From positions 606,420 through 670,419 of the forward strand of contig JAHLKD010000015.1 in assembly GCA_025526935.1 (NCBI GenBank): a DNA stretch of 64,000 bases. The letters are read 5' to 3'. The stretch comes from Cladochytrium replicatum. Its lineage: Eukaryota > Chytridiomycota > Chytridiomycetes > Cladochytriales > Cladochytriaceae. Numbering within the stretch: the stretch's first letter is position 1; each line of letters starts with the position of its first letter. Made by a program: the position numbers and the translations under genes. The notes under the pieces are model-generated. The model saw nothing but the letters and a program-made list of their open reading frames with translations, made no database searches and was not told the DNA's origin. This document shows positions 521 to 63,389 of this stretch, piece after piece.

Positions 521-3500
521 TTACATCGACCCGTCCCGCACAAACTTTTGATTTTCAATGTTTTTCAAGGTTGCCCTGTTCCTCCACCGCGCAAAGTTAT
601 TCACCTCCAGCTTCCCCCGCTTGTGCGTCAAGATCGCCTGCAGGCTCCGCAAATCCTCGACCTCCGACAACGACCGTACCCCACCGGATCGCCCGTCGAT
701 GCTACACAGTGACGGCGTGGACCCTTCATCGTCGTTTTCGTCTTCGTCCTCCTCCCCATGCTCCAACCAGATGATTCTGTTTTCGTCGACCTGATCGCCA
801 CCACGTTCTGCCCAGGGCTTAGTCCTGACTTCCTTGTCACTGCGAGATGTCTGCAATGAGAGTCGGTGCTCCTGTGTTGTCCGAGACTTCGCGAGCTGAA
901 GCGATAGGGTGTTGTGCAAGCTCGAAGCCCTGGGGACGTGCCTGGACCCGGCGGGTCTGGAAAATTGAAAGTCATCGCTGTCGTCGCTTTCATTCTCATC
1001 GTGAACTTCAACTTCACCGAGCTGGTTCGTATGGTCCACACTGCCAATGTCTACCGCTTGGTCTCCACTGTGTTTGAGAACAGATTCGAAACGCAGAAAT
1101 TGAGGGACTTGTTGATCGCGACTCCCTTCTGCTGACTCGACTGGAACGATGTTGTCACCTGGACCGGTGTTGTGCAAAAGGTTGCTTTTCGCGCTCCGAG
1201 CCGGAAGCAGTGTCTCGGGAGAGTTGTTGCCCTTATGAGCATCACAAAGAAGACACGAAATATTGGAAGCTTCGTCGTTGTCGGCTGCTACTCTGTTGTG
1301 GTTTGGAGATAGTCCTGTGTTAAAAGGATGCACATTACTAGGCTGGCTGTGATTGATCTCAGGTAATTGAATGGGAGAACGTGTGTGGTCGCGTGGAGTC
1401 TTGGCAGAATGAAGGTTTCCGGCTGCTTGTGTAACGGACGTTACCGGCGCAACTTCAGAAGTGCAAGCGGGAAAATGGCTCGTCGTTGACCCACCCGCCC
1501 AGCTTTCAGGATCAAGATGATGATCATTGTGATTGAGCTCGCCAGTCTCACACGGTGGTTCGTTTTCATTCCAATCTACGTGCTCACTTTTGCCAATGTC
1601 CGTTGCATCGATTCTTCCGACAGAGATAGCGGGCTGATCAGACGAATCAATACTTGGATAGATTGGTGAGGCACTCCCAGAGTTAGTGTTGCCGCGTACA
1701 AGTAATGGATCATTATTTGTCGTGTCACGTCCAGAGAGCATTTCCTCGATTAAACCTTCTCCACGAGCAATTGGAGCATAGGACCTGCTGGATACCGAAA
1801 AGTTTTGTGTATCGCCAATTTGCAACAAACTGATGTGGAGCGGTGGAGATGAGATTTGTAAGGGCGACCATGACGCTTTCAAGTTCAACTTAGGTGATGT
1901 TTCGCAGTGCTGAACGTCTTCAGAATTTTTTAGTGGTGTAGTTTGCTGAGGAATCGGTGGGGGATATGAAGATGTGTTCCCGGACGTTTGATCTGTTTTG
2001 TCTGCGTGTGCTTCGCCATTGGGCACCTGTTGATCGCCATTGGGCACCTGTTGAGCGATTCGCGATATGCTTTCATTCGTGTCTTCAGGAGGAGACGGGG
2101 AAGCTTCATCATCTTGCGGAGCATGATCATTAGCATCTCCTCTTCCATTCTCAGTCGATTCGCCACATTTGCTTCTTTCACGGCCGTCTGGCGATGAGCT
2201 GACCAGCGTGGTAGTTGTGACCGGTGCAGCTTTTGATCTTGGTTCCCAGGCTGTTCCTGTCCAAACCCAGATATCTACATCATTACTCGCTCGAGCTTTC
2301 TTTGATGCAGCAATTGCGGCAGCTAGAGCTGGAGGAGCCGATGGCGGTCTTCGAATCGGCTCAGGTGGCACTTCTATGCCTGCATACGCTACTGGTCAGA
2401 ATGTCACGATGAATAGTAGGGACAGACACGTACTCAAAAACGTTGCAGATTTGGCCATCGAGAAATTACGCAGAGATGCCTCACCTGAAGGCTTCTTCTC
2501 ATCGATTCGGCTAATACTGGATATTGGTGCACCGCAATTGTCCCAAGGAATAACTCGCACAACTAAACGCCCACGCTGTGACCCATTGTGATCCAAAATG
2601 GTAATATAATCGTTTTCGAGATCAGTCAATGTTGCTGTTCCTATGAAGTCGCTCTGCTTTGGAGTCCACTCAGTCCAGATTCTGATTCGTATCGCCGATG
2701 GGTGTGAAGCAATCACTTGACAGCTGAAGTTCCAGACTGGATCTGTACTGCTTTTCACTGTATGGCTACGATGAAATGCTTCGTCGCAGTCACTTTCCAC
2801 GGTGAGGTACGGATTTGGGAAGGCAAGCTGAGGTTGATCATCGCTGGCCATGAATGGCGAGGCAAACGGTTGCGCGGGGTCGGAAACTAACGGAAGCTGG
2901 GTTGCTTGCTGTATAACAACAAGAAACTTGCTTGGGCTAGCTATCTCGGAATCTAAGGCGTATCTCGAGGCCATTCTCAAGGTACCAGGACTGGCGGGCG
3001 ATTCTGGCTTTGATGCCGATGGCTCTTCATCATATGCTTCGCCTCTTCCGGATGGCTCCACTCTTCGAAAAACAAAATATAGTTAGATTAATTGCTTCAA
3101 CTAGATCGCTTTCAAACCTGAAGCATGCATTTGATGTTCCACTGATGTCAGCAGTTAGGTATGGTTGTTGCACCTTTAAACTGACTTTTGGTTTTGCTTT
3201 GAGCTCGTGCATCGGTAGAATACTCACGCGGGCGTAAATCTTTGCCCCTTCCAAATCTGCTCTGTCGTCGCAAATCATCGGAAACCATCCTTCTGTTGCC
3301 TCATGGTCCTCCATCAAATCTCCTTTCCTTAGTCGATGCTTTGCTCCTTTCATTAAATCCCACAGATCCAGGAAGCAGCTCCCCGCAAGTTCAATGGATT
3401 CTTCGTTATCGCTTTCATTTGTGTCCACACCAAATCTGACTGGACTTCTACTTCGCTGCAGAGGAGCGACGGAAGCTAATCTTCTCCGCCGCCAAATATC

Positions 3501-6500
3501 CACCCTGAACTGCTCGTTTTTGAAACTGCTCTCCACGATGGGAAGCATATGAACGCGCTTTCGACAGTCGTAGTTGAGCTCCGCTTTGCACAACTTTAAT
3601 GTGTGCGTCAATTCCAATGGTGCGGCATGACTAACTAAGAACTCCCTTTGACAATTAATCTCAGAATTGCGCGTCCCAAGCAACCGAAATGCCTTCATAT
3701 CTTGATGATACTGCACAGGCAGAGAGAAGCGGACAAAAACGTCTTCACAGTATTTTTGTTCTTCTCTTTCCGCCGCTTCCAGCATAGCTTTGATTGTTGC
3801 ACTGTGGGCAACTGGATCATCACCAGTTTCCTTGGCTGTGCCAGCTAAGCTGCGGAGGGCATCTGCGACTGCGTTCTTCGCTTTTGGAATAATAATCGTT
3901 TCAATAGATATCCCCAGCTGGGCATACCAAGAGTCTTCGGGCAGTTTTGCTTTGAGCGCCTTCAATCGACGGGAGGCATTGCGAGCATCACGCTTTTCAT
4001 CCGCTGATTGTGATACAAATCGAATAGACGTTTCGATCGCCCCGAAATTGAAATCTGACGACGCATCATCGGGAAGACTCAGCGGTCGCCAGATCCTGTT
4101 AAGCCCTCTCCATCGACGGGTGACATCGGACAATGACAAGTTAAACTTTCCAATCAAGACGTCGTATCCTCCATCGGATCCTCTGCTTCTTGTATCGAAC
4201 CCGATATCGGCATGGGAGCACCGCCATGATAAACACGATGGTGAGCTTGAGGAAATGTTCCCATATACACGAGAATCCTCCAAAGAATTAGAAACCCTGT
4301 GCCAAACTTCACCAACCGCAAATCCTTTTCGGCTTTGCATCCAGTCAAGAATTTCCGAGTTGACACCTTTGAGTGAGATTACGACCGAGTGATTGAATTT
4401 AGGGCAGAAGGTTTGGGCGACCGTGGCCGTTCCAAATTCCGAACCGTCCACATCATTATCGTTAAGTCCATCGCTCACCACCACAGCGACTTCCCGTGGA
4501 AATAGTTGGAACCGTACATAAGGATTAAGACCCACCTCTTTTGCATACTCAAGCGGTGCTATTAGTGAGCAAGGATCACCTCTACGTTCACTCATGTAAT
4601 GATTTTGAGTGAAAGAATCGTCGTGGACGAAGTCTGCACGTTTCCAGCGCGTTTTTATTGCATCAAGCACACTATTGATTTCGTCTTCCCCACTTAATCC
4701 AACGGGATCCGGGTATTGCTGAGCTGGTCGAATTGATGTCAAAGAGGATATCTTCTCGATCGCTGCCTTAACGAGTGGTCTAAAACCAGCTCCCCGATGA
4801 ATAGTTATTTGGAATTCACATTCTCCACTCCAGTCCAAAGAAACGGTATCGATGTCCAAATCATCAAAATCATACTCTGAATCACTCTCCGTCTCCATTG
4901 GCGGGTCTTGAAGTTCCTCCGACTTTTGAATGGCGTCCGGAGCGGACTCTGTCTGAGTCCCACCATCAAGCACACAGCCTCGTCCTTTACCAGGCTCGGC
5001 ATAGGGACCTTTTCCCTCTTTGACAATATGGTTAACCTGCTCAAGGGTTCCAATTGCCATGGTTGCATTCATCCAACCCTTCGCGATACCAGAGAGTGGG
5101 TCCACAATAGGATACTCTGCTTCTGGCAAAACAACTGGCTCAGGGTCAGCAACTTTTTGGTGAGTATTCTGAGTTGCGATCTCCATTTCGATGGTCATCA
5201 AGTCGTAAAGGTGATATGACGGAAGTTTCGCCAGCCCGAGAAGCACCGGACGTGATTTAACGTGTTGATCTTCGGATGAATCCAATTCCTGAGAGGTTTC
5301 GTTGCGTCCTGGAGAGGAAGACGTGCCAGCTTCAAATTCCGATGCCCACACTTCGACAACGAGTGGCGATTTGAAAAGTTGAGTTGCAGCGTTGGTTGAC
5401 TTAAACAGCACCGGTACTGGCATGATATACTGAAATCCAAAGTTTGCAGCCGATTGATTGATATCTACATGCCCAGTCTCTGTGTTGACCGCTGAGTGAT
5501 AGGCTACAGGAGCGCTCTCGATTGTAAGTGGAGCAGCTGTTCTCAGTATTTCTTTCGAACGTTTGTGTGTTCGGTTTCTCTCATTGTCACGTCGTGCCTT
5601 CTCGGTACTGACGTTGAGCAAGCGGATTGTGAGGGAGATAGCGTAACGCTTTCCTGGGGCGGACACAAGATGTAGCGCTCGAGCTGATGAAATTTGAATC
5701 AAAAAGTACTTGGTTACCGAATGTGGGTGAGATTTGCCGACAACGTTGTCACGAATCTGGTCGGAAGGCTGTTCACTATTACCAGGGTCTTTGCTCTTTA
5801 TCGTCGGAGTTTCGTGTGTAATTTGAGTGGGAGAGTCAAGCAGCTCAACAGAAACGAATGCTTCCCCAACATGTCGTACGGCCAAGCGTTTTGTACCAAT
5901 GCTGACAGTGTCAACAGAGTTCCTTGAATGCTCGTATACGGATTTACTCCTGCCCGTTTCATCAAAAAGAGGGACCCGTCCACTCCATGCAAGTTGCGGC
6001 TTCAGCAAAATATCCAGACATTTCATCTGACCGATGGCAGTCCAAGCGTCCTGCTGTTTGAGCGGCTTCTTCCCCATTTCTGTCGTGTTTCTTCCAACAG
6101 GAAGCCGCCCGGCTTTGGCAACCAACTTCACCACAATTCGCGATTTTGCCCATGCATCGATACACGACACCGGGCTCATATCAAATCGCCATGGATATAT
6201 TCGACTACGATCGCTAAAACGGATAGTAATTCGTTGATCGGATCGCTCCTGGATGTCGTACCGGACGCCTCTCTGGGCGTTCCTCGGGACGCTCTCTTTT
6301 TCGCCCGAAAGTTCGAAATTGAACGGTGAAATGGGGGCATGAATTGCGGCCCCATTCTCTGTGACAAGCGAAGCATGCAGCTTAAATTTTGTGAATCCGA
6401 GCGGCAAACTTCCCACGTGAAGTTCAGCATGGCTGATGTCTATTTTCACAGAATGAACACGCCCAACTGCTGCAACAACATCTGCATGCAACTGAATTCC

Positions 6501-8110
6501 ATTCGTAAATCTTGCAGTGTAGAGCTGGGTTTGCTCTTGACCAATAGATGAAGACTTTTCCTCCCTTCCATTCGAATAATTTGTTCCGTGAAACACGCCC
6601 TTTTGGGACATGTCGCGTCGGTTTTGTATTCTTTCGCCGCCATTACTTTCATTCTCTTCAGGTATTTTGAATATTCGTTGAGTGAATGAAGGTGTTCGAA
6701 CGGCTTCACGAGCGAGAGAATCGTTCAACTCGAGCAGGTCTGCCAGCTCCTCCTCTCCCTCAGAGAGATTCCCCATGAGCATTTCCAAGCTGCCATTGTC
6801 AAGCTCATCGCAATCGCTCTCAAGATTCTCTGGATCAAAAGAAGTGCTTTGTTGTAATTGTGAAGCATTCTCCGTCCAGCTGTTACGCATTCCCGTATTT
6901 CGAAGTGACGATGCAGACGATTCGGTTTGAGATAACTTATCTGTGTCCGTTTTGTCCAATCTTGGAAAAGATGCAACTTGACTTGTTGTTGAGGGTATGG
7001 CAGGCTTCGCATCTTCATCACCCTCCAACGCTCCAACCAGCAACGAATGGAGCCGTTGTGCTTGCAAAAAGAGTTCGTCGACGTCTGGGGTATCTCGATC
7101 GACAGCCCGACTTCCTTTATCGCTCTTTGGAGAGTCTGAAAATTCTATTAGATCTAACCAATGACGTTTCACCGAAGTTGCTTACGTTTCTGGTTCGCGT
7201 GAACAGCTATATTTGTGCCTCTGTGAACATCCGAAGCTTGACCAACCGCCCTTTGCAGACCATCCGTATCCTCATCGTCAAGATCAAAGACCCTATTGTG
7301 CTCAAACTCATCAACGATTGCTCTGATATCTCCACGATTTCTCTGCTGCGCGATCATGATTTCCGGATCTCCATAATCACTATTGAAATTGCACGGATCT
7401 TCTTCCACTGTTACGTGAACATATGCAGCACCGATACATTGTCCGCTACCCTCATAGACGACAGGATATTTGGATACACAAACTCCTTTGCTTTCGAAAG
7501 TATTTGGAGACATATCCGTAAGCAGTTCGTTTGTTGGGATGTGGCAAACGATTCTGTCAGTTGTGGGAGATGCCAGTGTCCCCCGCATTTGATTCCGCCA
7601 TCTCCTTGTTGGGTACTGTAATGCCAGCGTGATTACTTTGGCGTCTTCCAAATAATGAGCCAATCTAGAATATGAGCCTCTTATTGGAAAGTGCACTGTG
7701 TTTGAGCGGTGAATAGACCTCCTATAAGTGAGTGGTATCGCCGATCCAGCATGAAAATGTGACTCGCAATCACCAGCCCACTCCAAAACACTTGATCGGA
7801 GATCTTTCAATCGGTTTTTTGAATAGAGGTACAATCCAGCGTCATTCACTCCCGGCAGTCGAACATGGACAAAGAGATTGTCTGATATTTTGAAACTGTG
7901 GATTTCGCTGGGAACTTCCTTCTCCGTAGCCCTCCCAATCAAAGATTCGATGAACCGACTGGAACTTCCCTTTCCCAATGTATCAGCAGGCTCCAGGCTG
8001 ATTCGCAAAACCTGAATATGAAGAAACGCTCGTATTGGTCCTCCTGCCTTTGGAGGAAGTGATGGGGCTGGATTGATACGCGGAAGCGCCGAAGATTCTC
8101 GGTCCGACAT
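521..8110 (-). CDS. C2CD3: C2CD3-like centriolar multi-C2-domain protein
   Basis: Four exons on the minus strand give about 2,480 residues, close to vertebrate C2CD3 (about 2,350). I place introns at 7187-7137, 3117-3063 and about 2434-2376 from GT/AG signals and phase. The N-terminal part (LPPKAGG-IRAFLHIQV, later NTVHFPIRG and ALQYPT) matches the C2CD3 N-terminal C2 region. Further C2 domains follow: one with GLNPYVRFQLFP, one with VFVRFSLPVQYHQD ending near CFLDLWDLM, and one in exon 3 with KFLVVIQQATQLPL, PNPYLTVESDCDEAFHRS and DPVWNFS. The C-terminal 600 residues are Ser/Asp-rich and disordered. In animals C2CD3 sits at the distal centriole and is needed for distal appendages and ciliogenesis; by inference it serves the zoospore basal body here. 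Start chosen at 8110, where the C2CD3-like N-terminus begins. It is divergent from the CSN1-HDAC gene. Confidence 0.8.
2014..2055. repeat. 21-bp tandem duplication inside C2CD3 exon 4
   Basis: Two copies of a 21-bp unit beginning CGCCATTGGG, differing only at the last base, encode a doubled QQVPNG motif in the disordered C-terminal region. It keeps frame. Confidence 0.85.
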
Positions 8111-8213
8111 CTACAGAAATGATCTGTCAAATATGGCAATTTCATAGCAGACACATTAGCCAACCTCGGCGTTACTCGATTTGGGTGTGCTGCGCCACTC
8201 AAAGTCAACAAAC
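8111..8213. promoter_or_regulatory. Bidirectional promoter, C2CD3 / CSN1-HDAC
   Basis: Only 103 bp separate the two divergent start codons (8110 minus, 8214 plus), so both genes must initiate from this interval or inside each other's 5' ends. No TATA box stands out. Shared control is inferred from spacing alone. Confidence 0.55.
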
Positions 8214-9526
8214 ATGGACCTAAAGTCTTACATGTCGAACTATCAAGGTAAAAAACCACACAGCGTGTCTGGTGAGCTAATACAGTGCATAAATCAGGTC
8301 CAGGGAGGATAAAGCGCCTCCTGCTAATTGCAGCAAGCTGTCAGGCACTAGAATTGGACGCATATCTCTCAGCTTTGGCAGAAGTTAAGAATACCTTGAA
8401 TGCAGACCTTTACAAAGAAGTCTTGTCCCAAGCCAGCCTGTCTTCTCATGCTCAGCTGAAGGAAGAGGTATTTGACGTTGAATGGTCAACGTTGGCAAAA
8501 CAGCAACATGAATCAACTGTTCGTAAGCTCGAAGGAGAGCTGTTGAGGGCTCAAGAAGCAGGAGAAAAGAGAATTGTCAGAGTAGGATGATGCTTTGCAG
8601 TCAAGATATCTCACCCTAAATTATTTGGAAGAATACTCTAACAGGACTTGGTGGACATTACTTTGAGCGCACTCAGTACAAGTGGGCACTCAAATATTTC
8701 GAAAGAAGTTTTGAATTTTGCACTTCTCAGGAGGAGATAGTTGACTCCTGTATTAATGTTGTAAAGGTAGAACTATTTTTGTCATTTGTATAAGTACTCA
8801 CATATTCTAAGGTACTGACAGTCATGGGCAACTTTTCGCAAATCAGTGAGTGGGTCAGCAAGGCTGGGGATTTATCCAGATATGATGCTGTCACATCTGG
8901 CAAACTTAAGTGCTGCTTGGGAATTCAGCATATGCTCAACCATGAGTATCTAAAGGCAGCAACAGAGTTTGTAAGTGTGAGCGGAAATGTAGGCAGCCAA
9001 TTCAACGAGGTAAAGACTTACAAGACTTTTGCATGAATTATTAATTGTAAGTTATGAGCAGGTTCTGTCAGAGTTGGATCTTGGGCTTTATTCAGGTTTA
9101 ACAATTTTGGCATCATTCAGTCATGATGGCATCAAGGGTTCTTTACTCAATCAGAAGGTCAGCCTGTCCATTTCTGCACACCCAAAACTCTTCTCAATTA
9201 TAGAGCAACTTTCAAACGGAAACTTCACACATTTGATAACATATCTCCAACTATTGCCAGTATGTGTAGTTTCTATTAAAGCTCTAGTGAACCAACCTGC
9301 TAACTTTTTGAATTAGGAAGAAATTGCGTTTGATATGTATTTAAGTGATCAGTTTGAGTTTCTGAGAAATGAGATAATGCGAAATGCTTTACTTCATTAT
9401 TTTTCTTCTGTTCATCAGTATGACATCCAGACTACTGCACTTGCATTCAATACAACTTCAGCAGTAATTGACCCAGATTTCAGATATTTTGTTGATGCTA
9501 GGCTTGTTTCAATCAATTCAACAATG
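8214..9526 (+). CDS. CSN1: COP9 signalosome subunit 1 (CSN1) PCI module, 5' half of a fusion gene
   Basis: CSN1 is the PCI-domain scaffold subunit of the COP9 signalosome, which removes Nedd8 from cullins. Exon 1 (8214-8247) joins exon 2 (from 8298) to give MDLKSYMSNYQGPGRIKRLL, matching the CSN1 signature of an aromatic-rich N-terminus followed by RIxRL. Further exons lie at about 8645-8766, 8812-9009, 9062-9259 and 9317-9526. They carry GHYFERTQYKWALKYFER, KLKCCLGIQ, LYSGLTILASF and the PCI winged-helix stretch IRNRAL-like RNEIMRNALLHYFSSVHQ followed by AFNTTSAVI. All junctions keep phase except exon 2/exon 3, which is off by one base. The helical tail that normally follows the winged helix is absent. 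Instead a 46-nt phase-0 intron with a perfect TACTAAT branch site (9527-9572) joins the frame directly to a histone deacetylase. If that intron is retained, CSN1 ends two codons later. Confidence 0.8.
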
Positions 9527-9572
9527 GTTTGTTAAATATTTTCTGAAAATGCAATACTAATATTGTTTGAAG

Positions 9573-12500
9573 GATGAATTGCCCCAAAAAAACGGAGCAA
9601 CAAATAATGATTTTACAGTACTCAACATGAACATTGGAGGTGGTTCTCATAATATTGAGGGGAGAAATAAGCCCACTAGTAACACTGGCTTAGTTTATGA
9701 CATTCGCATGTTATCGCATCGCAACATTCAAGATCCGCCAGATAGACCAGACCTTGCACATCCAGAGCGCCCGGCAAGAATATCAGCAGCATTTGGGTAC
9801 CTTTTCGAGAAAGGCATTGGTCAGGAGTGTGTCAGAATTGAGATACCAGCAACTGGAGCAACAGATGACATTTTGAAACTTGCACACACAGAGGAACATG
9901 TAAACTTTCTCAAGCAATATGAAGGTACAGAATTTTTCCCTTAAATGACAGTATATTCACTTCTTGCCTTGTCTAGATTGTGATGATTCTGAGCTATTAG
10001 AAAAGGCTTCAGATCTTCACCAGGATATCTTTTTCTCACATGACAGCATACTTGCTGCACGTGTTTCTTGTGGAGGTGTTCTAGAATTATGCAAAGCAGT
10101 CTGGAAAGGTGATGTCCAGAATGGGGTTGCTCTTGTGAGGTTTGTGCCTTAATCTTTGCATCTATGCTGACATTTATTAATATCACATTCAAGACCCCCA
10201 GGACACCATGCAGAGCATGATAAAGCATATGGATTTTGTTTTTTCAACAACGTTGCGGTAGCTGCACGATACCTTCAAAAATTCCATCAAGTGAAACGTA
10301 TACTGATTGTTGACTGGGATGTTCACCATGGTAAAAAACCAGTGCTTTATTCTTCTTTATATGTTTACATGTACACACAAAATTGTTCAGGAAATGGGAT
10401 CCAAAAGGAGTTTTACAATGATCCTAATGTCCTCTACATCTCCTTGCACCGCTACAAAGATTTCTTCCCAAATGATCCTGTTGCATACATGGACCATGTT
10501 GGAGGTGCTGAAGCAGAAGGACGGTTTGTTTCAACAAGCATACTTTATATTTAGGTTTCTTAGTCTCAGTATCAGGAATGTGAATATTCCATGGCCATGT
10601 GGTGGATTAAGAGATGCAGATTATTTGCATGCATTCCACAGAATTGTCATGCCTGTTGCAACTGAATTTCAACCTGATTTTGTCATCGTTGCATCTGGTT
10701 TTGACGCTGCTGAAGGCGATCCTCTGGGAGGTTGCCATATTTCGCCTGGAGGATATGCACATATGGCATATATGTTGAAATCGCTGGCAAAGGGAAAGCT
10801 TGTGTTAGCATTGGAGGTACAAAATGTTTGTGCTGAGCTAAAAATTTTCTGAATTGTTTGATGACTAGGGAGGATACTCGATTCATGCTGTAAAGACCAG
10901 CATCTACGAAGTGACGAGAATCTTACTCGGGCACCCTCCTCCGTTGCTGCCGTACAGGGCCAGCCATGAAGATTCAGAAAGTTCTTCAGATCACACCTAC
11001 AATTCAGAATCAGATAGGTCAGATTCTGATTCTAAGTCTGGTGATGAGCCTAATACAACTGGAGACGTGGTTAGCAATTCTCCTAATATAAATGATACGC
11101 CAATGGTAAACGGCACAGATCAGGCTCAAAGCTCTTCCAACATCCAGAACACTATTTTTGATGATGCAAGCTCAGATGAAGGAAGCTATGCCCCCAGCAG
11201 ATCACCAAAACAATCTAGTTCTTCATCAGACAACACCAGCACAGCATCTTCATCACAAAGCTCATCAGGTTTGACAATATACTTCGTACAATTCCCTTTC
11301 TGACAATTTTTGAAGCTGTAGATATGGTGCCTCAACCTGTTGCAATCAAAACAATCAATCAGGTTATTGAATATCATTCAAACTACTGGAAGTGTCTTTC
11401 GACACCATACTTCCACAAGCCAATGAGTGGTATGTTTGCTGAACAACTGTCAACTAGAAACACACAAAATGATGGTATTTTCAGTGAAGGATGCAGAGCG
11501 AACTATTTGCATTTCAGGTGTGTATAAACATAAATCTAAACACAAAATCGCAGGTTTAATCAATCACTCAGATTTGCTGGACTTCTACTATTCAAGGAGG
11601 TTGAAGACCATGGGTTTGACGGAAATCATGCTTCAATCTCATATCCAACAATTGTTTGGTGGTCGGATATCGTCTAAGTAAGGTTGGATATCTGTTGGAT
11701 ATATATTTATTGCTGAACATCTTCTGTCAGTCATGCAACCATCAGCGAAAGCAAAACCATTTGTATTTATGTCCATAATAGGTCAGTTACAAAAGGATAT
11801 CTAGAGACAGTTCTTGATATTTATTTTCAGCTGGAATGAAGTTAGGTACATTGGGATCAATTCTCAGGTTTTAAGATGCAAACTAATGTGTTTTCGCAAA
11901 GAGGGCGATTATCAGAGGAGCAAAACACCCTTTCTCCAGAATCTACATTCTTAGTAAGAGACCGACTTGTTCATACTTACATTGCCTCATTCCATTTCAA
12001 AACAGGTTGATGGGGTCACATCATATTTATACAAAATGACGCAAAACAACAATGTGGTCATTGACATTGATGTTGATTTGCTTTCAACCAAGAAGAAGAT
12101 ACAATCTTTCAGTAAAAGAGAGAAATCATCGAGACTCATGGTAATTTGTTGAAGCTTTCTAGTATGAATTAACCTCAAATTTTCTCGCTAAATTGCAGTA
12201 TATATCAATCCAGCTGCTCGTTCGGGTTCTTAAAACGTTGTGGGATAAAATTGTGTGGTATGTGTTGATTTTTGGTTTTATTTTTTCAATCCTCTTATAA
12301 ATACTAAGCAGCAATGCCGATGCCAAAGTGGTGTTTTTGGGTTCAGGGATCGGAGCATATTGTTTAATGAAGTTCCTGATATCAGGCAATCGATCTGAAG
12401 GTATGTTTGTGAATGCATTTGTTTTTCTTTATAAACATAAATCCAGGCATTATGAGCAGAGTGAACCGTGGGATTCTTGTGTTCCCATCAATTAGTGATT

Positions 12501-12799
12501 TGAAAGTGCACAGGAGTATGGATGGATGGTTTGTGAATGTAAGTATGATAGGCAATAGAGAGGTGTTCATACTAATACAGACATCCACCAGCATATAAGA
12601 TCATATATTCCTTCTAAGTTACCAATAAACACAAGACTGGGTGAAAGTTCTTTCTCTGGAGGTGAGTTCCGTGCCATTTTATCTTGCCATATTTTTATGT
12701 GTACATGGTGCAGGGTCAGGAACATCAATTTCCAGCATGATGATCACATTAGAAGACTCAATTCTGGACTATTTATTTGAGGAAACCCACAATGTGTGA
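9573..12799 (+). CDS. HDA1: Class II histone deacetylase (Hda1/Clr3 type) with Arb2 domain, 3' half of the fusion gene
   Basis: A zinc-dependent lysine deacetylase of the fungal Hda1/Clr3 group. Exons that I could phase: 9573-9924, 9977-10139, 10194-10330, 10391-10523, 10570-10816, 10869-11268, then from 11316. The catalytic domain starts at TGLVYDIRM. It contains the HPERPARI motif, [43 protein letters not shown] and LEGGYS, so the charge-relay His pair, zinc-binding Asp/His and the catalytic Tyr are all present. A Ser/Asp/Asn-rich insert of about 110 residues (about 10950-11265) separates the GGY segment from the C-terminal HSNYWKCL helix. From about 11.9 kb an Arb2 domain follows: [41 protein letters not shown] and the terminal [11 protein letters not shown]. 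Exons between 11.43 and 11.95 kb are uncertain. The first in-frame Met is at 9627, should the gene have its own start, but no promoter-sized gap exists upstream. Confidence 0.85.
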
Positions 12800-13162
12800 G
12801 GCTTTGCGTTCTGTTTGTATTTATGGACTAGTTGTCTCACCACGAACAAACTGGATTTCGGTCACAGTTTGTCTTGACTTATGCAAGCTCGTGATGTTCT
12901 GTTGATGATTTTGGATCGACATGTGCTTGGTCATCAAATAAAATTCTACTTCAAATAGTCGACTGCTCATTGTAGCGTCTTGAGTTCATGTTCTACTAAC
13001 AAAATGAGTCCCTCATTGCAGCAAACTGGTAATCATAGAGATTTGCAAGAAACATCATCGCCCCTCCTACAGCAGCAACAGCTGATGTTAGAAGTTGCGT
13101 AGCTTATTAGGTCATTGACGATACGAAAACAAGTACAGTCGATTCCCGACACTCGTGATACA
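12800..13162. other. 3' intergenic interval between convergent genes
   Basis: This contains the 3' ends of the HDAC gene (plus) and the methyltransferase gene (minus). No open frame of interest. Confidence 0.6.
12937..12942 (+). terminator. Polyadenylation signal AATAAA
   Basis: AATAAA lies 138 bp after the HDAC stop codon and before the convergent neighbour, a plausible cleavage signal. Assignment is by position only. Confidence 0.45.
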
Positions 13163-15508: not shown

Positions 15509-16710
15509 ATGTCACTTTCAACCAAACTCGAAAAGAAACGCGCTGCTGCTTTACGCGTCGTCGCGTCGTTGGAGGCGATCGATATCAATGCGCTCATCGC
15601 TCAAGCTCGGCCTGCTCCAGTCTCTCCGCTGCTTCCTTTCCACCCCTCAAACTTCATCCCATCGAACACAATCGCGATCCTGAACATCGGGCAAGGCCAA
15701 AGCGGTTCGAAGCCATCCTCAGCTGATCCCACCGAGCTGAGCAACGTATTTAGCCATGGAAAATTGATCCTAGGGCTTGGAAAGCCATACGGTTTCGTGA
15801 AATTCAACACAGTTGAAGATGCGGTAGAGGTGATGAATAGGGTCGATTCGGTGCCGTGCGAGGGGCTGTCGAACAAGAAAATCTTGCTCCTTGCTTATAT
15901 TCGCAGCGTTCCGGGAGAGACAGGCTCCAGGGAGGAGGAGGCTGGAGGAGATGTTGTTCGGCCTGAGATGGATAAAGTGACAGCGGCTGTGCCTGGACTG
16001 GATGTGATGCTGAATTTTGTGAGTGAAGAGGAAGAGAAAGTACTTGTGAAGTTCGTGGACGACACCGAGGACGCGTGGAACCATTTGCGAGACAGGCGTG
16101 TGGTGAGCAATCCTTTCCCAAATTTGAAATAGTATTGACGGTTGATCCTTTCCCAACAGCAACACTATGGTTATATCTTCGGTAATTTTACCTCAAAAGC
16201 TTTTTCGCAGCCAAGGGCTGACATTTAAGGACAGATTATTCTAATCACGGTGCAATCATGACTCGGCCTTTCCCTCCATGGACCGAGTCGCTCCTCTCCA
16301 GATTCAACCATCACCGTCCACAAACACACTCCTTCAACCAACTCACCATCAACGAGTACCCTCCCGGAACCGGAATCGCACCGCACGTTGATGCACACAC
16401 GACATTCCACTCTCCGATCCTAATCATCTCACTCTCAAGCGACATCGTCATGGAGTTTGCGCGTGAAGGAAAGTCGACGCAGCATTTGCTGCTTCCACGA
16501 CGGTCTGCGTTGCTCATGAAGGCTGAGAGTCGGTGGAGCTGGACGCATGGGATCAGAGCGCGGAAGCTGGATGGTGTTGCGGGGAGGATATTGACGAGGG
16601 GCAGGAGGATCAGTTTGACGTTTAGGCGAGTTAGGCTGGTGAATGAGGAGGATGGAAGGATGTGTGAGTGCGGTGGTGATCCACTTTGTGATTTCCCAAC
16701 AAGTCAGTGA
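15509..16710 (+). CDS. ALKBH8: RRM plus AlkB 2-oxoglutarate/Fe(II) dioxygenase, ALKBH8-like
   Basis: Three exons: 15509-16102, 16160-16181 (only 22 nt) and 16235-16710. Joined, they read through RRVQHYGYIFDYSNHGA, which is the conserved entry into the AlkB domain of ALKBH8. An N-terminal RRM is visible (TIAILNIGQG, KPYGFVKFNTVEDAVEVMN). The dioxygenase core has LTINEYPPGTGIAPHVDAHTTF (HxD iron ligands), IVMEF, LPRRSALLMKAESRWSWTHGI (distal His) and RRISLTFRRVR (Arg contacts to 2-oxoglutarate). The C-terminus has a Cys cluster, CECGGDPLC, like the zinc-binding tail of the family. In animals ALKBH8 hydroxylates wobble uridine side chains of tRNA and also has a methyltransferase domain; that domain is absent here. 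Confidence 0.85.
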
Positions 16711-17777: not shown

Positions 17778-20700
17778 ATGAGATTCGCCATGCCGTTTCC
17801 AAACCCGCCATTCGTGGTTACGGGCGACCAGGAGATTGTCGATCGATGGAGCTCTAAGTCAGGTAAGGCACAAAGAATAATATTCTGCTAATCACACTCA
17901 ACATTCACACCGTCAGAACAAGTCGGTGGTGCCGCTGCCTATCTCTCTTCCGCATCCCAGCGCATCATGAAGCTTCTCTACGACAACCCTCGTCACGTTC
18001 CCGTGAGTCACATCCCCCAGCGAATCGTTGTATTTCTGGGACCTCATGGTCATCCAACTGGTTTCGACGACATGGGTGTGTACACCATAACGATCCCATT
18101 CTCGCGCGTCAGTGAGATCGATGCGAGAATTGAGTTCGAGATTGGAATTCTGTGGGCTGCGGTCGTACAGGAACTGCCGAAATCCGAGTTCTTGAAAGGA
18201 GTGTCGCAGTATCTGTGTCAATCCGTAACGGATGATGACATTTATGACGATGTCAAAAGTATGACTTGGCGAAAATGTAACGCTGAAAAAATCTCGGAGT
18301 ATCTGAAATGGCTCGAATATCGCGAGCCGAATGCGTTGACGAGAGTTTATGCGATGGCGCACGAGCTTCGAAGCAATGGATCGGTGATTACACCGGAAAT
18401 ATTTGAAAATATCGTGGATGAGCAGTTGATGATCGGTAGTACGAGACGGTGGGAGGAGTTTGGGTTCAATTGTGATGCTTTACCAGTTCGGTGGAATTTG
18501 CCCGTTGTAAATTTCGACAGAACTGAAGAGGGGAGACGGTCTCTCGGAGGACGATTGTTTTGGAAGCACGCGACGACGACGGCGACTGGTGGGCCACAAC
18601 CTCCTGACGGTTGGCCAGACAGTATGGTCGATAACGACCTATATTTGCAGAGTCCGGATGGTTCAAAACGAGCCGAGCGGTGGCTGCGACGCATCGTCAA
18701 AGGCGTCCTCAAGCAACTCTACGCAGAACCATTCCATGTACCCCCCCAGTTCAGAGCCATCCGAATAGTGATTCGCCCCTTCGACGGCGTAGCTCACACC
18801 ACCGGCGATTTCCACAACAAGGAAATACACTTTTCCACGAATTACATCGCTTCTTTCCACAAGAATCATGGTGGCGAAGGAGAGGATTGCGATGGCGAGG
18901 ATTTGGAGACTCCGTCACTCGCAGAAGGGCTAGGAGAGGAGATCGATGGGGTGCTGTGGCACGAGATGGTGCATTGCGTGCAGTACAGTGGGAAAGGGAT
19001 CCCTGGTGGCATGGTCGAGGGGATCGCGGACTGGGTGAGGATTCGTGGCGGGTATGGGAGGGATTGGGAGAGGAAGCCCGGTAGGTCGTGGGACGGCGGC
19101 TATGGAACCACGGCTTTCTTCTTAATATGGATCGAGGATGAGTATGTGAACGAGCAAGGCGGAAGTGGAGGGCAAGTGCCTGCATGGAAGTCAATTGTTA
19201 GGACGATGAACTTGAAACTCAGAGCCCAAAAATGGGACGTCAAGTGGTTCGATGAGATAACTGGCAAGGATGTCCTTGCGCTGTGGTCGCTGTATCAGCA
19301 AAGCCTTGGAAACAAAAAGGCAAAGGAAAACGCAGAATTTATGGAGCTGGATGAGGAAGGATGGCCTCTGGCGAACGTCACGGTAGAGCTGAAGAATCCA
19401 AACAGCGAATGCGTAAAGATCTTGCTCCGGCACGCGCGAGACACCTTCCATCTACACCCCCGAAGCTCGCCATCCGGCTCACGCGACGCAGACCGCGCTC
19501 TTCTCGCTCGGCTCATCCACCACCTCTCTAAAGGCGTACAGAAGCAACTCTACCCAACACCGCTAGCAGACCACCCTCTCCGTCGTCTCCGCTTCATCGT
19601 CCGTCGCATGGACGGCGTCGCACACGTATCAGGCGACTACCCAAACAAAGAACTCCACGTCTCCGAACAGTACATCGAGGGCTTCCGACACCGGCACGAG
19701 CACAAAGGATCAGCGGCTGCAGACGAAGAGGTTTCGCATGAGATCAACGGTGTGCTTTCGCATGAGCTTGTGCATGCGTGGCAGTTCAACGGCAACGGGA
19801 CGGCGAGCGGCGGGTTGATTGAAGGTATTTCGGATTATGTGAGGTTAAAGATGGGGTATGGAGCGCGGCACTGGAAGCGAGAGGCTCAGAAGTGGGATCA
19901 GGGGTATGACCGGACCGCGTACTTTCTTGAGTGGATCGACGAACTTGCATTGAGGCAGACTCGGGAAGAAGACTTGGATGACGATGGGAGAAATATATCC
20001 CTGGTTCAACGAGTGAACCTCGCACTGCGCTACCGCGATTATCACGATCAGTTTGTGCCCCAACTTCTCGGGCTGTCGCACGATGGGCTCCGAAAACTGT
20101 GGTGGCAGTATCAGGATTCTGAGCGGTACCGATCAAGTCTGAATACTCCACCAGAACGTTTCGAGATCTGCATTGGAGACTCTGACGATGACAAGGTGGT
20201 CCTCGAGGCCGTGTGGAACGATCTGACGAGATCGGTGCCGAGTGCGCCAGTTGCACTTACTGCTACACGACTCCCTGCTGTGTCAGGGGCCGACGAAACC
20301 GGCAATCACAGTTCCCGGATCGGGGCAAATTACCTTCAAGCGATGGACGCAAAGGTTCGAAATGAAATAATTTCGACGATTCCTGGTTTCGCTTTCGTCG
20401 AGACAGATAGGATACGTTTGTGCGTCCACGAGACTTCACCGATCGCGTACATCGCACGCACCGAGATCGATGGCAAAACGACGTGGATTTTACACATTTC
20501 CACGCTCTATCTCAAGTACTATGCGCACCCCGAACGGATCGCGTGTGATGACGACGGATCGAACATTTCCGCCACGGAGCGAAGACTAGCGAGCGAGTTT
20601 GAGGGTATCGTTGTGCAGCTTCTCGCAACGATGCACTTCACCCGCGCGATTGGGGAGGCTCAAGCTGAGTCTGCTGGTGTTTATGTTCGAGTAAAGATGG

Positions 20701-20927
20701 GTATGAAGTCATTGTTGTGGACGCGGGAGTGGTTGAGAGTACGAGTTCTTGATGGATGGGACAGTGTGGACGATCCGACGGTATTGGGGAGCTTTTTCGC
20801 TTGGAGCAGGGATCGCTCGGGTTCAGAGAAGGTTTGGGGATGGTTGAGCTGTGGGGCCACCTCTGAATCTATGAAAAGCGAAATGGCAGACGCATGGGTA
20901 ATGTTTGCGCAAGACATGAGACTGTAA
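17778..20927 (+). CDS. Multi-module basic secretory protein (BSP) family metallopeptidase-like protein
   Basis: Two exons: 17778-17862 and 17917-20927 (54-nt intron), about 1,031 residues. Four modules of the plant/bacterial BSP peptidase family are visible. Module 1 (about residues 15-200) is degenerate and lacks HExxH. Module 2 (about 260-480) has FHNKEIHFS, the zinc motif HEMVH, GGMVEGIADWVRI and WDGGYGTTAFFLIW. Module 3 (about 530-750) has YPNKELHVS, HELVH, GGLIEGISDYVRLKMGYG and WDQGYDRTAYFLEWID. Module 4 (about 790-1030) keeps the fold (ESAGVYVRVKMG) but the HExxH position has become LLATMHFTR. Family members are thought to be zinc proteases, usually single-domain and secreted with roles in defence. 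No signal peptide is evident (MRFAMPFPNPPF). Hence two candidate active modules are flanked by two that look inactive. Confidence 0.8.
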
Positions 20928-39834: not shown

Positions 39835-40595
39835 AAGATTATGTATATGCCATATGTACGAGGAAGAAATATAAATACAGACTCTAAATTGGGCGGAAGA
39901 GAGATTGCCGAAAATGGAGTTTGCAAAAAGCGGGAGAGGAGCCAACGAGAAACAATCACAGGAGTTGCTTAAGTTGTTTGATGTTTCGAGAGTTTCTAAG
40001 TCTCTCCTCCCTCATTTTTTGCAGTGACATTCTGTCAATGAGAACGGCATGATTAGCAACGTTACAGTTATAACAACCATTTCACATACGGAGCGGATGA
40101 GTTTGCGGAAGGATTTCTCCATTGGACGAACATGCAGTACAGCCAATACATCAGCGGAAGAAGGTGCAAGGCAATCAAGAATCGTAGAAGCCTGAATGGT
40201 CCAAGGATTGGTGAGTTTCGAAAAGAAACCAAACACAAATGCCGCTCACCCCCAACCCACAGTTTTTGGTTCGATGTGCGCATCGTGTTCTTCCGTAAAC
40301 GAGTCACTCTCCTCCTGTACGACATCGACTGGCGGGACAGCCGCCGCGGCTGCAACTCCGACGACCAACGCTCGAATCCACAAGGCAACACCCATCACTA
40401 AGCCACAGGAAGGATCTCAAATTTTTAAACAAGGAAAATCAAGGAATGCCACACATTGATCTTGTGCTTTTATTTTAAAGTGTTATAAAATCAATGGAAC
40501 TGTTTGATAGATACAACCAATCACAGCTCGTAAATCTAACCCGATCGCTCGACAGTTTTTCAGACTCGGAATAGCCCCCAATTTTTCGCGACCAT
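39835..40595. other. Intergenic stretch, possible short spliced gene not resolved
   Basis: Coding-like pieces are visible on plus (frames near 39914-39980, 40050-40190 and 40255-40457, the last Ser/Thr/Ala-rich), but no combination of canonical splice sites kept a single frame. No family motif. It also carries the promoter of the coiled-coil gene at 40596. Confidence 0.35.
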
Positions 40596-43500
40596 ATGAG
40601 TTTTACTTCCCAAATCCGCTCGCTCCCTGAGTTTGGAGCTGCATCTTCGTTCAAAAATCTTCGTGATCATCGCCGGGCGATTTCAGATTCCGAAAATGTG
40701 ACACAGGACACAAAACAACCGTGGAGGTTCCGGTATTCGTCCTCGACTGCATCCTCCCCACGGATCAGAAGGCGATCACACCTTTTGGTCGATTCCGGAC
40801 GAATTCTTGCAGCACCTCATTGCACCACTCCGAAAGGCCGCTCAGTGATTATGGTGGGACCGCGTGTGTGTGAGGCAGAAGCGAGGATGGCTCTCGATGA
40901 CATATCATGGTCAAGTGGGAAAGAAAAAGATTCACCACGACGAAGATCACCGTCTGAGTACGACCTTCCAGCTGGATTAACTGCGCGATCAAAGTCGGAA
41001 TCTCTATCACCCACTCTCCCACGCTCAAAAGACTGGCGTTCGGGAGAGGGAAGGTTCGTTGGGGGAAAGCCGACGCCGGACACATACTCTACTCTTATGT
41101 CAGAGGCTGGATCACTTGGGCTGAACGAGACAACCTATGAACAGCAATCCAAAAGGTCACGAACATCAACTATCAACTCAACATCAGCCATCAATGATGG
41201 TGCGAATGAAGTTGACTTCAAAATTTCGGGTGGTGTGAAGATAACCCGAACCCAGCGATTGCGCAAACTGGCACTTGATAAGAAATCAGCCGCGATGGCA
41301 GCTTCGGCTGCACCTGAACCTCGCATCCCTAAAAGGGTAAATCTAAGCAACTCTCGGACGAATAGTGGAAGGAATACACCGATTTGGGCACGTCGGCCCA
41401 TTTCTCCAGCCAGCGTGAGGAAACCCTCTGTGAGAATATCTCTCCCGCGCTCACGACAGCCGAGCATGCAAAACGCACATTCAACTGCCGCTTTCATGTC
41501 CACCATTCGACTACACAATCCGCCAATAGGTTTTCAGAAAAAACCTTCGAGCCCTGTTGGAAAGTCACACAGATCTACCATCGATGTAGAGAGCCCACGT
41601 ACCGTCGTCGGCACACCAATGAGCGCGGTCCCTGACCCCGAAACGTTCCTTGAGAAACTACGCAGACGTTCCGGTAGCCAAAAGGCGTGGGAACCATCGG
41701 ATCACAATGATGATTGCAGTGGACAATATTCGTCATCTTCAGAGGAAACCAAACGAAGGTCAAACAAGGTGAGACACTCCATACTCAAGAAACCTAACCG
41801 AAGAGATGCAAAGCGATTTCGATTTGGGAATGAGAGAAGAAGTAGCAGGAAAAATGAGAGCTCTTCATCGTCAAGCGATTATGTGGATGATCATCTCGAC
41901 AAGCGTAAGCGAAAGATGTTTATGCAGAAGGAGACAATTTCGTCGAGCCATTTTCAAGAGATTGCAACTGTTCTCACCCACCTTCTAGACGAGGTTAAAA
42001 CGTTGTCTGCTTACAGGAAACTTATGACAGCAGAACTGGACGACTTGAGACAGCAACAGTCGAAAAGCACAGTGTGGAAAGATTTGGAAGAGGTTAGATC
42101 ACAGCTTCGCCAGCTCAATGCTTTCGGGGAATCACAAAAGAAGTCCGCGAGAGAAATCAACAAATTGAGCGTAATAACGAGCGGCCAGGAGACGGTGGTG
42201 AATGATCTGGGAAATCGAATGGATGCTATTGAGAAGGAGATCGTGGCTCTTAAACAAACCGTCAAAACTATTGGGAAGCGTGGTCAGGGGACAAACTCCG
42301 ATGTCTTGCTCTTTGGTGACAGTCTGAAGGACGCTCTAGACGCAGAAATCTATGCCATGAGGATGGAGGTTGATGGTGTGACGAAAATGTACAAAGGAAT
42401 GATACAAATGACGGTTTCGAAAGAAGAGATGTCAAGGGCGTTGGACAGCGGGCTCAAGTCACTGAAGAGCGAGCTAGAGTCGTTGGCTAGGGATCAGAAA
42501 CAGGATCACCGCCAGTATAGCCTTGAGGTGCACACTGCGATTGAGTCGCTTAAAGTAGAATTCACTTCACTTATGGAAGAGTGCAACAGTGTAGGCAACA
42601 TGTACAAACGAATGGAGAAGACTGTACAAAAGGTCGAAAAGAATCAGGATGATTTGCTCGCCGATGGATTGCTGGGATTTGTGGGGCAGCTGGATGCGGA
42701 ATTGAAATCCGTGAAACAGGACATTGGGACCCTTAACATAACATGCAAAACATTCGAAAGATCCTTATCAAGGCGTTCGTCTGGGATGACATTAGAAGCG
42801 TTCAGCTCTATAAATTCAACAGTCAGCTCCCTATCTGCTGAAGTAAATGCTATCAAGACCGAATTGAGCGCAGTCTCAAAGTCACACAAGTCTGTTGAAC
42901 GCTCCGTCCAGAAGAAAGAAAAGCAGCAGTTACAAGGGTCAGAACAGGCTTTGGACTCTCTTGAAATTGACTTAGGGAAGGTTAAGCAAGAAGTAGCATC
43001 TTTGCAAAAGAACTCCAAACTACTCGAGAACGCATATTTAGAAACGGACGGGGAAGTCGCAACACTGAAGCAAGATATTTCTGCAGTTTTGAAAACACAG
43101 AGAAGCTTTGAAAAATCGCTGAAACGAAGGATCTGTCAGCAGATTTCTCCCGGCACCGCAGAAGCATTCGAAGGTCTCGCCGATGCTTTGAGTGGAGAAA
43201 TGAAAGCACTGCATGAGGAGATGGATAACATCACTCAGGCTCATGCTGCACTAGAAAGATCAATTCGCCAACTTGGACAACAGAATCAGCCCGTAGCGCC
43301 CGACATGAGCTCCATCAGTCGCAATCTAGAGACGCTGGATTGCAAAGTGAATGCGCTTGATCAAGACTTTGAAGTCCTGAAGCATTCCAACAGAACAATT
43401 GAGAGTCGAGTTCAACGTCTTGCACAGGGGACTCGAGATATCAGTGCCGCAGATGCGACAAGCGGAGATATCGAGGAGATGCAACAAGAAATCATTAGCT

Positions 43501-46037
43501 TGTCGAGAACTTGCCAAAAGCTGGAGAGATCATTCCAGAATGTTGAGAAGCAGCTGCAACGAGGAAGTGGTGATTCGATCAACTTGAACAATGCTTTTCG
43601 AGAGCTCAATGTTTCGGTTACTTCTCTCAAGCATGAGGTTTCAGCAACCCAACGGACGTGCAACCAGCTCGAGAAACGTATACGAGAAAGGCATACAAGC
43701 ACATCAATTGAAAATACGAAAGATGTTGATTCTCAGCTGAGCGTAATTCGCTCTGACATTGAAACCATTCGAAATGAGTGCGGAGAGATTGCCCTGGTTA
43801 TGGTCGGTCATGAGCAGGAAGGTGGTGACGGGCTTGTTGGGCAGTTAGCTTCTTTGAGTGCCGATTTGAATGCAATTAAGAAGCAATCTTCACACACTCA
43901 AGTTGCGCAAAAACACATTGACGAAGAGATTGCGTATCTTCGAGCTACTTTGCTTGAGCTCGAAGACAGTCGCAGTAAAGATATGAAGGAACTACTTTCT
44001 GCATGGGAGAATCACAAGGCGGTGATTGAGGCCCAAATAATACGCCTTTGCGAAGAGATAGAGATCAGATGCCCTGTTGTTGCGGGAGCGGAGTCACGAC
44101 ATAGCAGAGCGGCGTCATCACAAGGCTCGGTGATGCCAAAGATCCTGCTCACTAACTCGTCTGCGGAGTTCCAAACAATACTACTTGACAAAGCAAGACA
44201 GATGAGTTTGCAAGAGGAAGGAAAGGCAGTACATCCGTCGAGAATCATCTCAAGCTCTCGTGGTGTCGCTGATCGGTCACAATCAACGCTTACAAAAGTC
44301 GCCGAACAAGCTGTTTCAAAATCGGTAAATATTAAACTATTATTCATCTAAGTTTTATTGATCTGTAGAAATCAGATAAGTCAGACGTTAGTGAAGCGGA
44401 AAACTGAATCAGCCGAGAAACTGCGAATGCATAGTCCTCCACCGCCATCAACGTCTGGAGAGTCCGATGTTTCGGCCTCAATCGGCCACCAACGAAGCCG
44501 GTTTGGATCAGCAGAAGCAGCTTTAACAAAGGGAGAGGGCCATGCCTCTGAGGTACGGCGCTGGAGGAGCGCAACGACAGCTTTTAGTACTCAGAGGGAC
44601 CACTCTCCTTCCGGTTCCTCCGTCAACACGCGTGGAGACTCCATACCAACGAAACTCGGCCAATTAATTGATCAATTGAAACACTCAAGAGAGAGTCAGG
44701 AGAGGAACGATCAACAACCTACAGCGATTCACGATCATTCGTTGGGAAAGGGCAGCAATAGTGTGAAGGGAAGCCGGCGCGACGTGTCGGCGGCTGTTTC
44801 GGCCAAAAATAATCTGAATTCGAGAGCTACTTCTGTTTCGCCAGTCGCTGAACAAACAACATCAATTCCACCGTTCTCAGCACGGAAAGCCTTACTGGAC
44901 AGCATTTCGGGAAGTGAAGCCAAGCAAGAGGGAACAGAGCGTACAGCGGAAAGGTCCTCTGCAGTCAGGCGTCCGTCACTTACCGGTGCACATTCGCTCA
45001 GCGCTCTGTTGACCACTGATCGACGAGCGTCTCCAAAGTTGAAAGTTGCGTCGTCTTCGTTAGGATTATCTTCCTCCAGTCCAAAATCCACCGCATCTCC
45101 AGCAAGTAATTCATCAATGACAGCGACTCTTGGCAACAGCTCCACGGGCAATCGGCCTTCAGTAATCGAAACTCGAAAAGACCCGAATGCCCGTTCAATT
45201 ACTTTGGAAACGAACAGCGCAACAAGGAAGGCTGTGGTCAGTAAAGAGGGAGGAGAAGGGAAAGTGTGCGGCAGCTCTCCGAATGTCAGCTCGAGTGATC
45301 GTTTCGAACGTAGAATAGAGCTTTTGGGTGACAGCAGCGGAAAGAATCGGAAAGTGGTTGGAAGTACTCTGGATTTTAGGATCAACCGAACTCCAATCAA
45401 TACCATAACACCACTCACGATCAACACATCAAATCGAGCTTCCCCTGTTGAAAAGTCACACATTTCGCATGAAGATCGAGTGGCTTCCGTTCTCAGCAGC
45501 ACCCGAAACATCTCCCAGGCAAGCAAATCCAATATTAAAGAAGAACAGCCGTCTCCAAGCTCCATCGCTGCTCACCGAACGGTCAACCATTCAGAATCGA
45601 TGAACCCGCGGGTAGCCGGCGCAGTCTCTCAGAAGGTGTTGGGAAGCACGCCAAACATCCGAGCCTCGCTCGGACTTCCGAGTAAGACAGACCGTACTGT
45701 AGCTCGCAGCTCGATGGATATGACGGGAAAGCGAGAGTGGAATGGGTCAGGTTCCGGAAGATCAGGTGGGGATCGCCAAACACGCAGTGTTAGTCCGACT
45801 GGAAAGGAATCTGTGGCATCGAGTCGGTCAGCCTCGAGCTCTGCATATGTTAATCAAGACGTTTTGAATCAAGCTGCCGATCGCGGGGCCTCAAATTCGG
45901 GAGAGGATGTCGGACGAAGGACGAGCACAGCGCCTAGATCAAGTGGGGCGGGATCAAAATCGTTACTGAGGAAAGCGATCGAGACAAGTGTGGGTCGGAG
46001 TCGGAGTGTGAGCGGCAGCAGTGCGAGTAACTGCTAG
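40596..46037 (+). CDS. Large Ser-rich coiled-coil protein of unknown function
   Basis: About 1,805 residues in two exons. Residues 1-430 are Ser/Arg-rich and disordered. Residues about 450-1,180 form long coiled coils made of a loosely repeated unit of 50-70 residues: a heptad segment with the core L-x-x-E-V-x-x-I/L-K-x-E followed by E-R/K-S motifs (TFERSLSRRSS, SVERSVQKK, SFEKSLKRR, ALERSIRQL, KLERSFQNV). The rest is again Ser-rich, ending SGSSASNC. The intron at about 44325 has a GTAAAT donor and two acceptors 7 nt apart. The upstream one ends the protein after 12 more residues; the downstream one opens a further 550 residues. No known domain is recognised. The architecture suggests a structural or cytoskeletal scaffold, which is inference. 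Confidence 0.65.
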
Positions 46038-62956: not shown

Positions 62957-63108
62957 ACTTTGGAGTTGGTTTCCGGCTCAACCGTACCCGTCCGCCTCTG
63001 GCACTCCTTACAACGCTAATAGAGGATGTGCACCGCTATTGGTGTGCCAAGTTTGGCAAGCTGCCAACAGATGCACAACGATTCCACTTTGAGGGTCACG
63101 TGCATTTG

Positions 63109-63124
63109 CGAGGTCCGTACCTCG
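63109..63124. repeat. 16-bp dyad CGAGGTCCGTACCTCG, copy 2
   Basis: Identical to 62938-62953 but in different flanks, about 50 bp from the tRNA-like sequence. Confidence 0.7.
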
Positions 63125-63172
63125 ACAACCGCCACACGACTGATCGCAATCAATTACTAATCACAGTTAATC

Positions 63173-63244
63173 GCTCTATCAGGGGTTCGAACCTGCGTCC
63201 TTTTGCTTACAGCGCTGCGCCATAACCAATTGAGCTAATAGAGC
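63173..63244 (-). tRNA. tRNA-like sequence, degenerate (tRNA pseudogene or SINE head)
   Basis: 72 nt on minus. The acceptor stem pairs perfectly (GCTCTAT with ATAGAGC). The A box TAGCTCAATTGG and B box GGTTCGAACC match the pol III internal promoter consensus. The D stem is weak, the anticodon stem pairs at only one or two positions around CTGTAAG, and the T stem lacks three of five pairs. The anticodon would be GTA (Tyr) or TGT (Thr) depending on register. Not a convincing functional tRNA. Confidence 0.55.
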
Positions 63245-63389
63245 TGATCAAAACTTTTAGGTTTCTTGCTTCTATTTCGGCATATAAGTCGCACACTCCA
63301 TCACCATCTTGTGAGGCCATTTGGTTTTGTGTTTTGTTATGCATTGTATGTTCAAAATAAATATTGTTAACAAAAAAATTGGCCCTAAT

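Follow-up and report, generated by a model that had tools for sequence, protein, structure and literature searches.

A 64,000-nucleotide (nt) stretch of the genome of the chytrid Cladochytrium replicatum (contig JAHLKD010000015.1, positions 606,420 to 670,419; the whole stretch is called the window) carries, at 8214–12799 on the plus strand, a sequence related to COP9 signalosome subunit 1 (CSN1) that is predicted to be spliced in frame to a histone deacetylase (HDAC) of the Hda1 type. The gene model, assembled manually with homology and splice signals as guides, comprises 1132 codons and a stop in 24 exons; all 23 introns are GT-AG and 36–60 nt long, and the frame stays open over the 24 exons. 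The encoded protein begins with a CSN1-like part (residues 1–353); a linker of 37 residues connects this to a complete deacetylase of the Hda1 type, and an Arb2 domain follows. The start, junction intron and stop of the rebuilt gene fell exactly where the original prediction, an earlier reading of the same DNA, had placed them, and the exon structure, frame and domains confirmed the in-frame junction of CSN1 with Hda1 as a sequence observation. The least certain of the introns is the shortest, at 11518–11553 (36 nt, in frame and stop-free), which may be exonic or alternatively spliced; as exon it would add 12 residues and leave the fusion question unaffected. No second CSN1 or HDA1 was found in the 64-kb window by tblastn with both parts; HDA gave two further matches, which were weak (E 0.11 and E 0.21) and were disregarded.

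The intron that joins the two parts has the form that had been described for it. The upstream exon ends at 9526 in phase 0 (ATG/GTTTGT), and the next exon begins at 9573, again in phase 0, and runs without a stop into TGLVYDIRM, whose first base is 9684. Between them, the 46-nt intron opens with GT and carries a TACTAAT branch site, with the branch A 12 nt before the last intron base, and ends in AAG. Introns were scored with donor and acceptor models trained on the other 22 introns and a fixed, generic branch-site matrix. On this score, for which the training set is small and hand-built and the null is first-order, the junction intron reached 19.63 and ranked second of 23 when the other 22 were scored leave-one-out; with in-sample scoring, five of those 22 equalled or exceeded it. 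Donors scoring as high arose four times per 200,000 nt in a first-order Markov sequence trained on the locus. A stricter null left the CSN1 exon and the beginning of HDA untouched and filled the intervening 100 nt with random sequence drawn from the other introns and from flanking spacers. Of 20,000 such spacers, 5 held an intron that was open, joined the frames and scored no less than the junction; 31 held one scoring at least 16.8, about the median of the real introns, and 755 held one no worse than the poorest of them. Across the whole window, 13 donor–acceptor pairs attained the junction score (10 on the plus strand, 3 on the minus strand). Seven of the 10 plus-strand pairs, using six donors, belong to the fused gene, the junction included; the other six are candidate pairs.

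It had also been proposed that retention of the junction intron would switch the product between fused and free forms. The necessary TAA in the CSN1 frame is indeed present; however, 13 of the 23 introns introduce an in-frame stop when kept (the junction and 12 others), while eight cause a frameshift and two (at 10331 and 11518) leave the frame open. Such a stop is therefore unremarkable, and its reading as a regulatory switch was rejected.

The N-terminal part is, by sequence comparison, derived from CSN1 and closer to it than to the other PCI chain matched, because seven of the nine distinct PDB sequences that it matches are CSN1 (best E 6.5e-38, up to 133.9 bits), whereas the other PCI chain (8amz_R, labelled "PCI domain-containing protein" and not named CSN1) reached 27.4 bits (E 1.5e-5); the ninth match is a designed repeat protein (E 2.4e-4). 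The homology to CSN1/GPS1 (PDB 6r6h, 4d10 and 4lct) is collinear over residues 1–348, and 104 of 347 aligned residues are identical in human CSN1. The same RPN7 helical domain is found at residues 71–242 (E 4.1e-23, 82.4 bits; Pfam cut-off 29.6). This Pfam domain is shared with the 26S proteasome lid subunit Rpn7, a CSN1 paralogue (PMC12848000). The PCI domain differs from that of CSN1/GPS1 in falling under the cut-off: in a 97-residue test it scored 13.3 bits against a threshold of 22 and covered profile positions 5–53 of 84, whereas human CSN1 cut at the identical place scored 55.1 bits over positions 2–69. Given this control, the PCI winged helix seems to have decayed in addition to being cut. 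When the 353-residue part was scanned whole, no PCI match was listed by Pfam up to E 10, and an NCBIfam scan of the same part returned nothing. An AlphaFold model of the last CSN1 exon alone had a predicted local distance difference test score of 60.1 and a predicted template modelling score of 0.31, and it was not used.

Further differences from CSN1/GPS1 are the loss of the C-terminal tail and the predicted fusion to an HDAC. The homology stops at residue 348, which corresponds to residue 414 of 491 in the human protein, 77 residues before its C-terminus, and only 42 codons separate this point from TGLVYD (residue 391); the tail, which had been described as missing, is thus absent whether or not the genes are fused. 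The accompanying suggestion that the deacetylase replaces the tail helix found no support: the 37-residue linker intervenes, Pfam lists nothing for it up to E 10, and the CSN1 alignment does not extend into it when it is tested for an added CSN1 match. A lone CSN1 gene stopping at 9535 would be truncated, and we infer that fusion by deletion could account for the loss of the tail.

On the profile matches, the C-terminal part is a complete class II deacetylase of the Hda1/Clr3 type with a C-terminal Arb2 domain, in agreement with the original prediction. The Hist_deacetyl domain spans residues 416–713 (E 1.8e-90, above the Pfam cut-off) and the Arb2-like domain residues 920–1056 (E 3.5e-11, 43.2 bits; cut-off 26.6). 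The deacetylase motifs are present, LEGGY among them, and we take their roles to be catalytic. The PDB matches of this part (best 60 of 138) are led by HDAC6, Hda1 and Clr3, and further class II enzymes are among them. Like Hda1 (6z6f) and Clr3 (5ikk), the predicted protein combines a complete deacetylase domain, its motifs intact, with Arb2; unlike them, it bears a CSN1-derived N-terminal module. Searches of viral contigs returned two pattern matches for CSN1 and three for the HDAC, with no relative among them. An HDAC search of prokaryote genome contigs gave 79 pattern matches at 27 loci, all bacterial and 29–37% identical, which have no bearing on the fusion. The features of the locus are collected in the table.

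Table. Features of the predicted CSN1–HDAC gene and its flanks (positions in the window)
Feature	Position	Strand	Details
Divergent spacer	8111–8213		103 nt; the minus-strand C2CD3-like gene starts on its left (ATG 8110), the fused gene on its right
CSN1-like part	8214–9526	+	353 aa, start ATG 8214; exons 8214–8247, 8298–8581, 8632–8766, 8812–9009, 9062–9259, 9317–9526
Junction intron	9527–9572	+	46 nt, GTTTGT...TACTAAT...AAG, phase 0; splice score and random-spacer test
TAA in CSN1 frame	9533–9535	+	inside junction intron; intron retention would give a CSN1-only product (...NSTMVC)
Linker	9573–9683	+	37 aa; holds Met at 9627, where HDA1 would most probably start if unfused
Class II Hda1-type histone deacetylase domain	9684–11268	+	Pfam residues 416–713, then acidic Ser-rich stretch
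C-terminal part	11322–12799	+	Arb2-like domain (residues 920–1056 matched), many short exons; stop TGA ending at 12799
Candidate poly(A) signal	12937–12942	+	AATAAA, after final stop

On the left, four chained open reading frames (ORFs) on the minus strand (521–8110) contain a C2CD3 N-terminal C2 domain (7169–8110, E 2e-8) and a further C2 domain (2396–3082, E 6e-8); they probably form one C2CD3-like gene. C2CD3 is a protein of centrioles and basal bodies. This neighbour and a Fungal_trans domain elsewhere in the window are consistent with a flagellated fungus. On the right, a possibly ALKBH8-like gene occupies 15509–16710 of the plus strand, in which the ORF 16222–16710 has a 2OG-Fe(II) oxygenase domain and the preceding ORF, RRM-like by eye, has no Pfam match; a divergent GST gene has its start 106 nt from the predicted start of this gene. 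Further along the plus strand lie a 1011-residue ORF (17892–20927) that matches the domain BSP, a peptidase of plants and bacteria, at E 7.1e-78 and, at 40575–46037, two long same-frame ORFs (1258 and 561 residues) split by a single stop codon, the first with weak coiled-coil-type matches only and the second without any. GC content drops to 35% at 63001–64000, with a GC skew of about -0.24 and an AT skew of about -0.23. Rfam and tRNA scans of the window returned nothing.

Good support for the predicted single spliced gene comes from the junction intron, from the loss of the CSN1 tail and from the stretch 9400–9700, in which neither AATAAA nor ATTAAA occurs; that mRNA and protein are fused in one form or another is very probable. 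To the narrower reading, in which one gene with one main mRNA encodes an Hda1 enzyme whose docking arm derives from CSN1, we give about an even chance. According to this proposal, the main mRNA from 8214–12799 would yield a single fusion protein in which a CSN1-derived N-terminal module (the helical part with RPN7 and a PCI remnant) and a short linker precede the complete Hda1/Clr3-type deacetylase and Arb2. CSN1 and HDA1 would once have stood in tandem, and a deletion between them may have taken the CSN1 tail, the CSN1 terminator and the HDA1 promoter, after which splicing over the deletion junction would have created the fusion. In other organisms the CSN1 arm contacts modules of cullin ligases, DDB1 for example; here it would serve as a docking module and place the deacetylase at Cul4–DDB1-type ligases on chromatin.

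Published work offers a setting for such a docking arm. In fission yeast, deletion of Csn1 or Csn2, unlike that of Csn5 or Csn7, is described as harming heterochromatin, at least partly via Ddb1-dependent control of Epe1 (PMC4210515). The strongest hits in one fission-yeast silencing context were csn1, cdt2 and ddb1, and Clr3 is generally required for silencing (PMC9154106). The ARB2 domain of yeast Hda1 is reported to bind histones as a dimer (PMC5036196). Within CSN1, complex integrity is reported to require the central and C-terminal regions but not the N-terminal domain (PMC2265268), and CSN subunits are joined by a C-terminal bundle (PMC12848000). The parts that are weak or missing in the present protein thus appear to be those reported to assemble, and the better-kept parts those reported to dock. 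More tentatively, and at clearly less than even odds, an Hda1-type deacetylase may have taken the CSN1 arm as a Cul4–DDB1 targeting module while the scaffold role of CSN1 was abandoned or shifted to another gene.

Several points weigh against the fusion with a docking arm. The docking mechanism is wholly inferred. The notion that the arm was kept and the PCI lost is weakened by the RPN7 match itself, which reaches 85.2 bits against 213.6 in human CSN1, and by identity to the human protein, which differs little between the PCI stretch (26 of 97 residues) and the remainder (78 of 250, by subtraction). As for the fusion, the ATG at 9627 has an A at -3 and would be a natural start for an unfused HDA1, and predicted divergent starts lie only 103 nt (8110/8214) and 106 nt (15402/15509) apart in the window. 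Domain gains are, moreover, about two-fold over-estimated in fungal annotation (PMC10158824).

The original prediction had gone further: one protein might tether the deacetylase to the signalosome, or to CSN1 partners on chromatin. In the former case the fusion would act as a true subunit whose CSN1 part sits in the CSN ring. The premise, one spliced gene, has good support from the sequence; that the protein enters the signalosome in the canonical way is doubtful. CSN1 homology that stays collinear over residues 1–348 favours such a subunit, as does the promotion of silencing by both Csn1 and Clr3 in fission yeast (PMC4210515, PMC9154106). However, the PCI falls under the Pfam cut-off and the tail is absent, and these belong to the C-terminal regions and bundle on which integrity and subunit joining are reported to depend (PMC2265268, PMC12848000). 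A stable place in the ring is less likely because the needed parts are weak or missing, and a docking arm is preferred to a full subunit because the winged helix scores 13 bits where the equally cut human CSN1 scores 55; we therefore regard the true subunit as unlikely. Quite unlikely, too, is a fusion that carries its CSN1 part as a neutral passenger, an N-terminal extension in decay on an otherwise ordinary Hda1. The weak PCI and an RPN7 match far under the human one (85 versus 214 bits) would suit decay, but the frame is open through all six CSN1 exons, and the identity with human CSN1 (104 of 347 aligned residues) argues for constraint until recent times.

If there were instead two tightly packed tandem genes, CSN1 would end at the TAA, HDA1 would begin at ATG 9627, and the junction intron would reflect chance or a rare read-through splice. 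The in-frame TAA starts just seven bases past the exon end, the context of the ATG is suitable, and the divergent starts indicate that this genome manages with short spacers. The earlier argument that there is no space for a promoter needs correction: 91 nt separate the CSN1-frame stop from the first HDAC-frame Met, which is little but leaves some room, and given the divergent spacers the argument is weak on its own. A terminator and a promoter within 91 nt would be tighter, though, than these spacers of about 100 nt, and the one tandem pair measured, WD40/lactonase, lies about 220 nt apart (stop 34475, first ATG 34254). Two genes would also leave a frame-joining intron of a quality seen in just 5 of 20,000 random spacers, no AATAAA or ATTAAA near the joint, and a CSN1 still without its tail and winged-helix end, which makes this arrangement decidedly unlikely. 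GC content at third codon positions (GC3) is low in both parts (0.397 in CSN1, 0.374 in HDA; 0.502–0.648 in five other ORFs); it is also low in the C2CD3-like left neighbour (0.414 and 0.445), so the shared value is weak evidence for one unit. An assembly or sequencing artefact uniting two loci would fit a region whose GC content is below that of most of the window, but the two parts are alike in composition and a good in-phase intron at the joint would be unexpected, so that it is extremely improbable.

A natural fusion is a "Rosetta stone" clue to a joint function of two proteins. No CSN1–HDAC fusion was found among the titles and abstracts listed, which cover open-licence papers only and are no proof of absence. 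Fission-yeast genetics ties Csn1 and Csn2, not the catalytic Csn5, to silencing via Cul4–Ddb1, and Clr3 silences too. If true, the CSN1–HDAC fusion would make a direct physical link between these functions testable, and CSN1 docking would be separable from its scaffold function. One polypeptide in this chytrid would then be a hard-wired version of silencing functions that are split among separate proteins in fission yeast.

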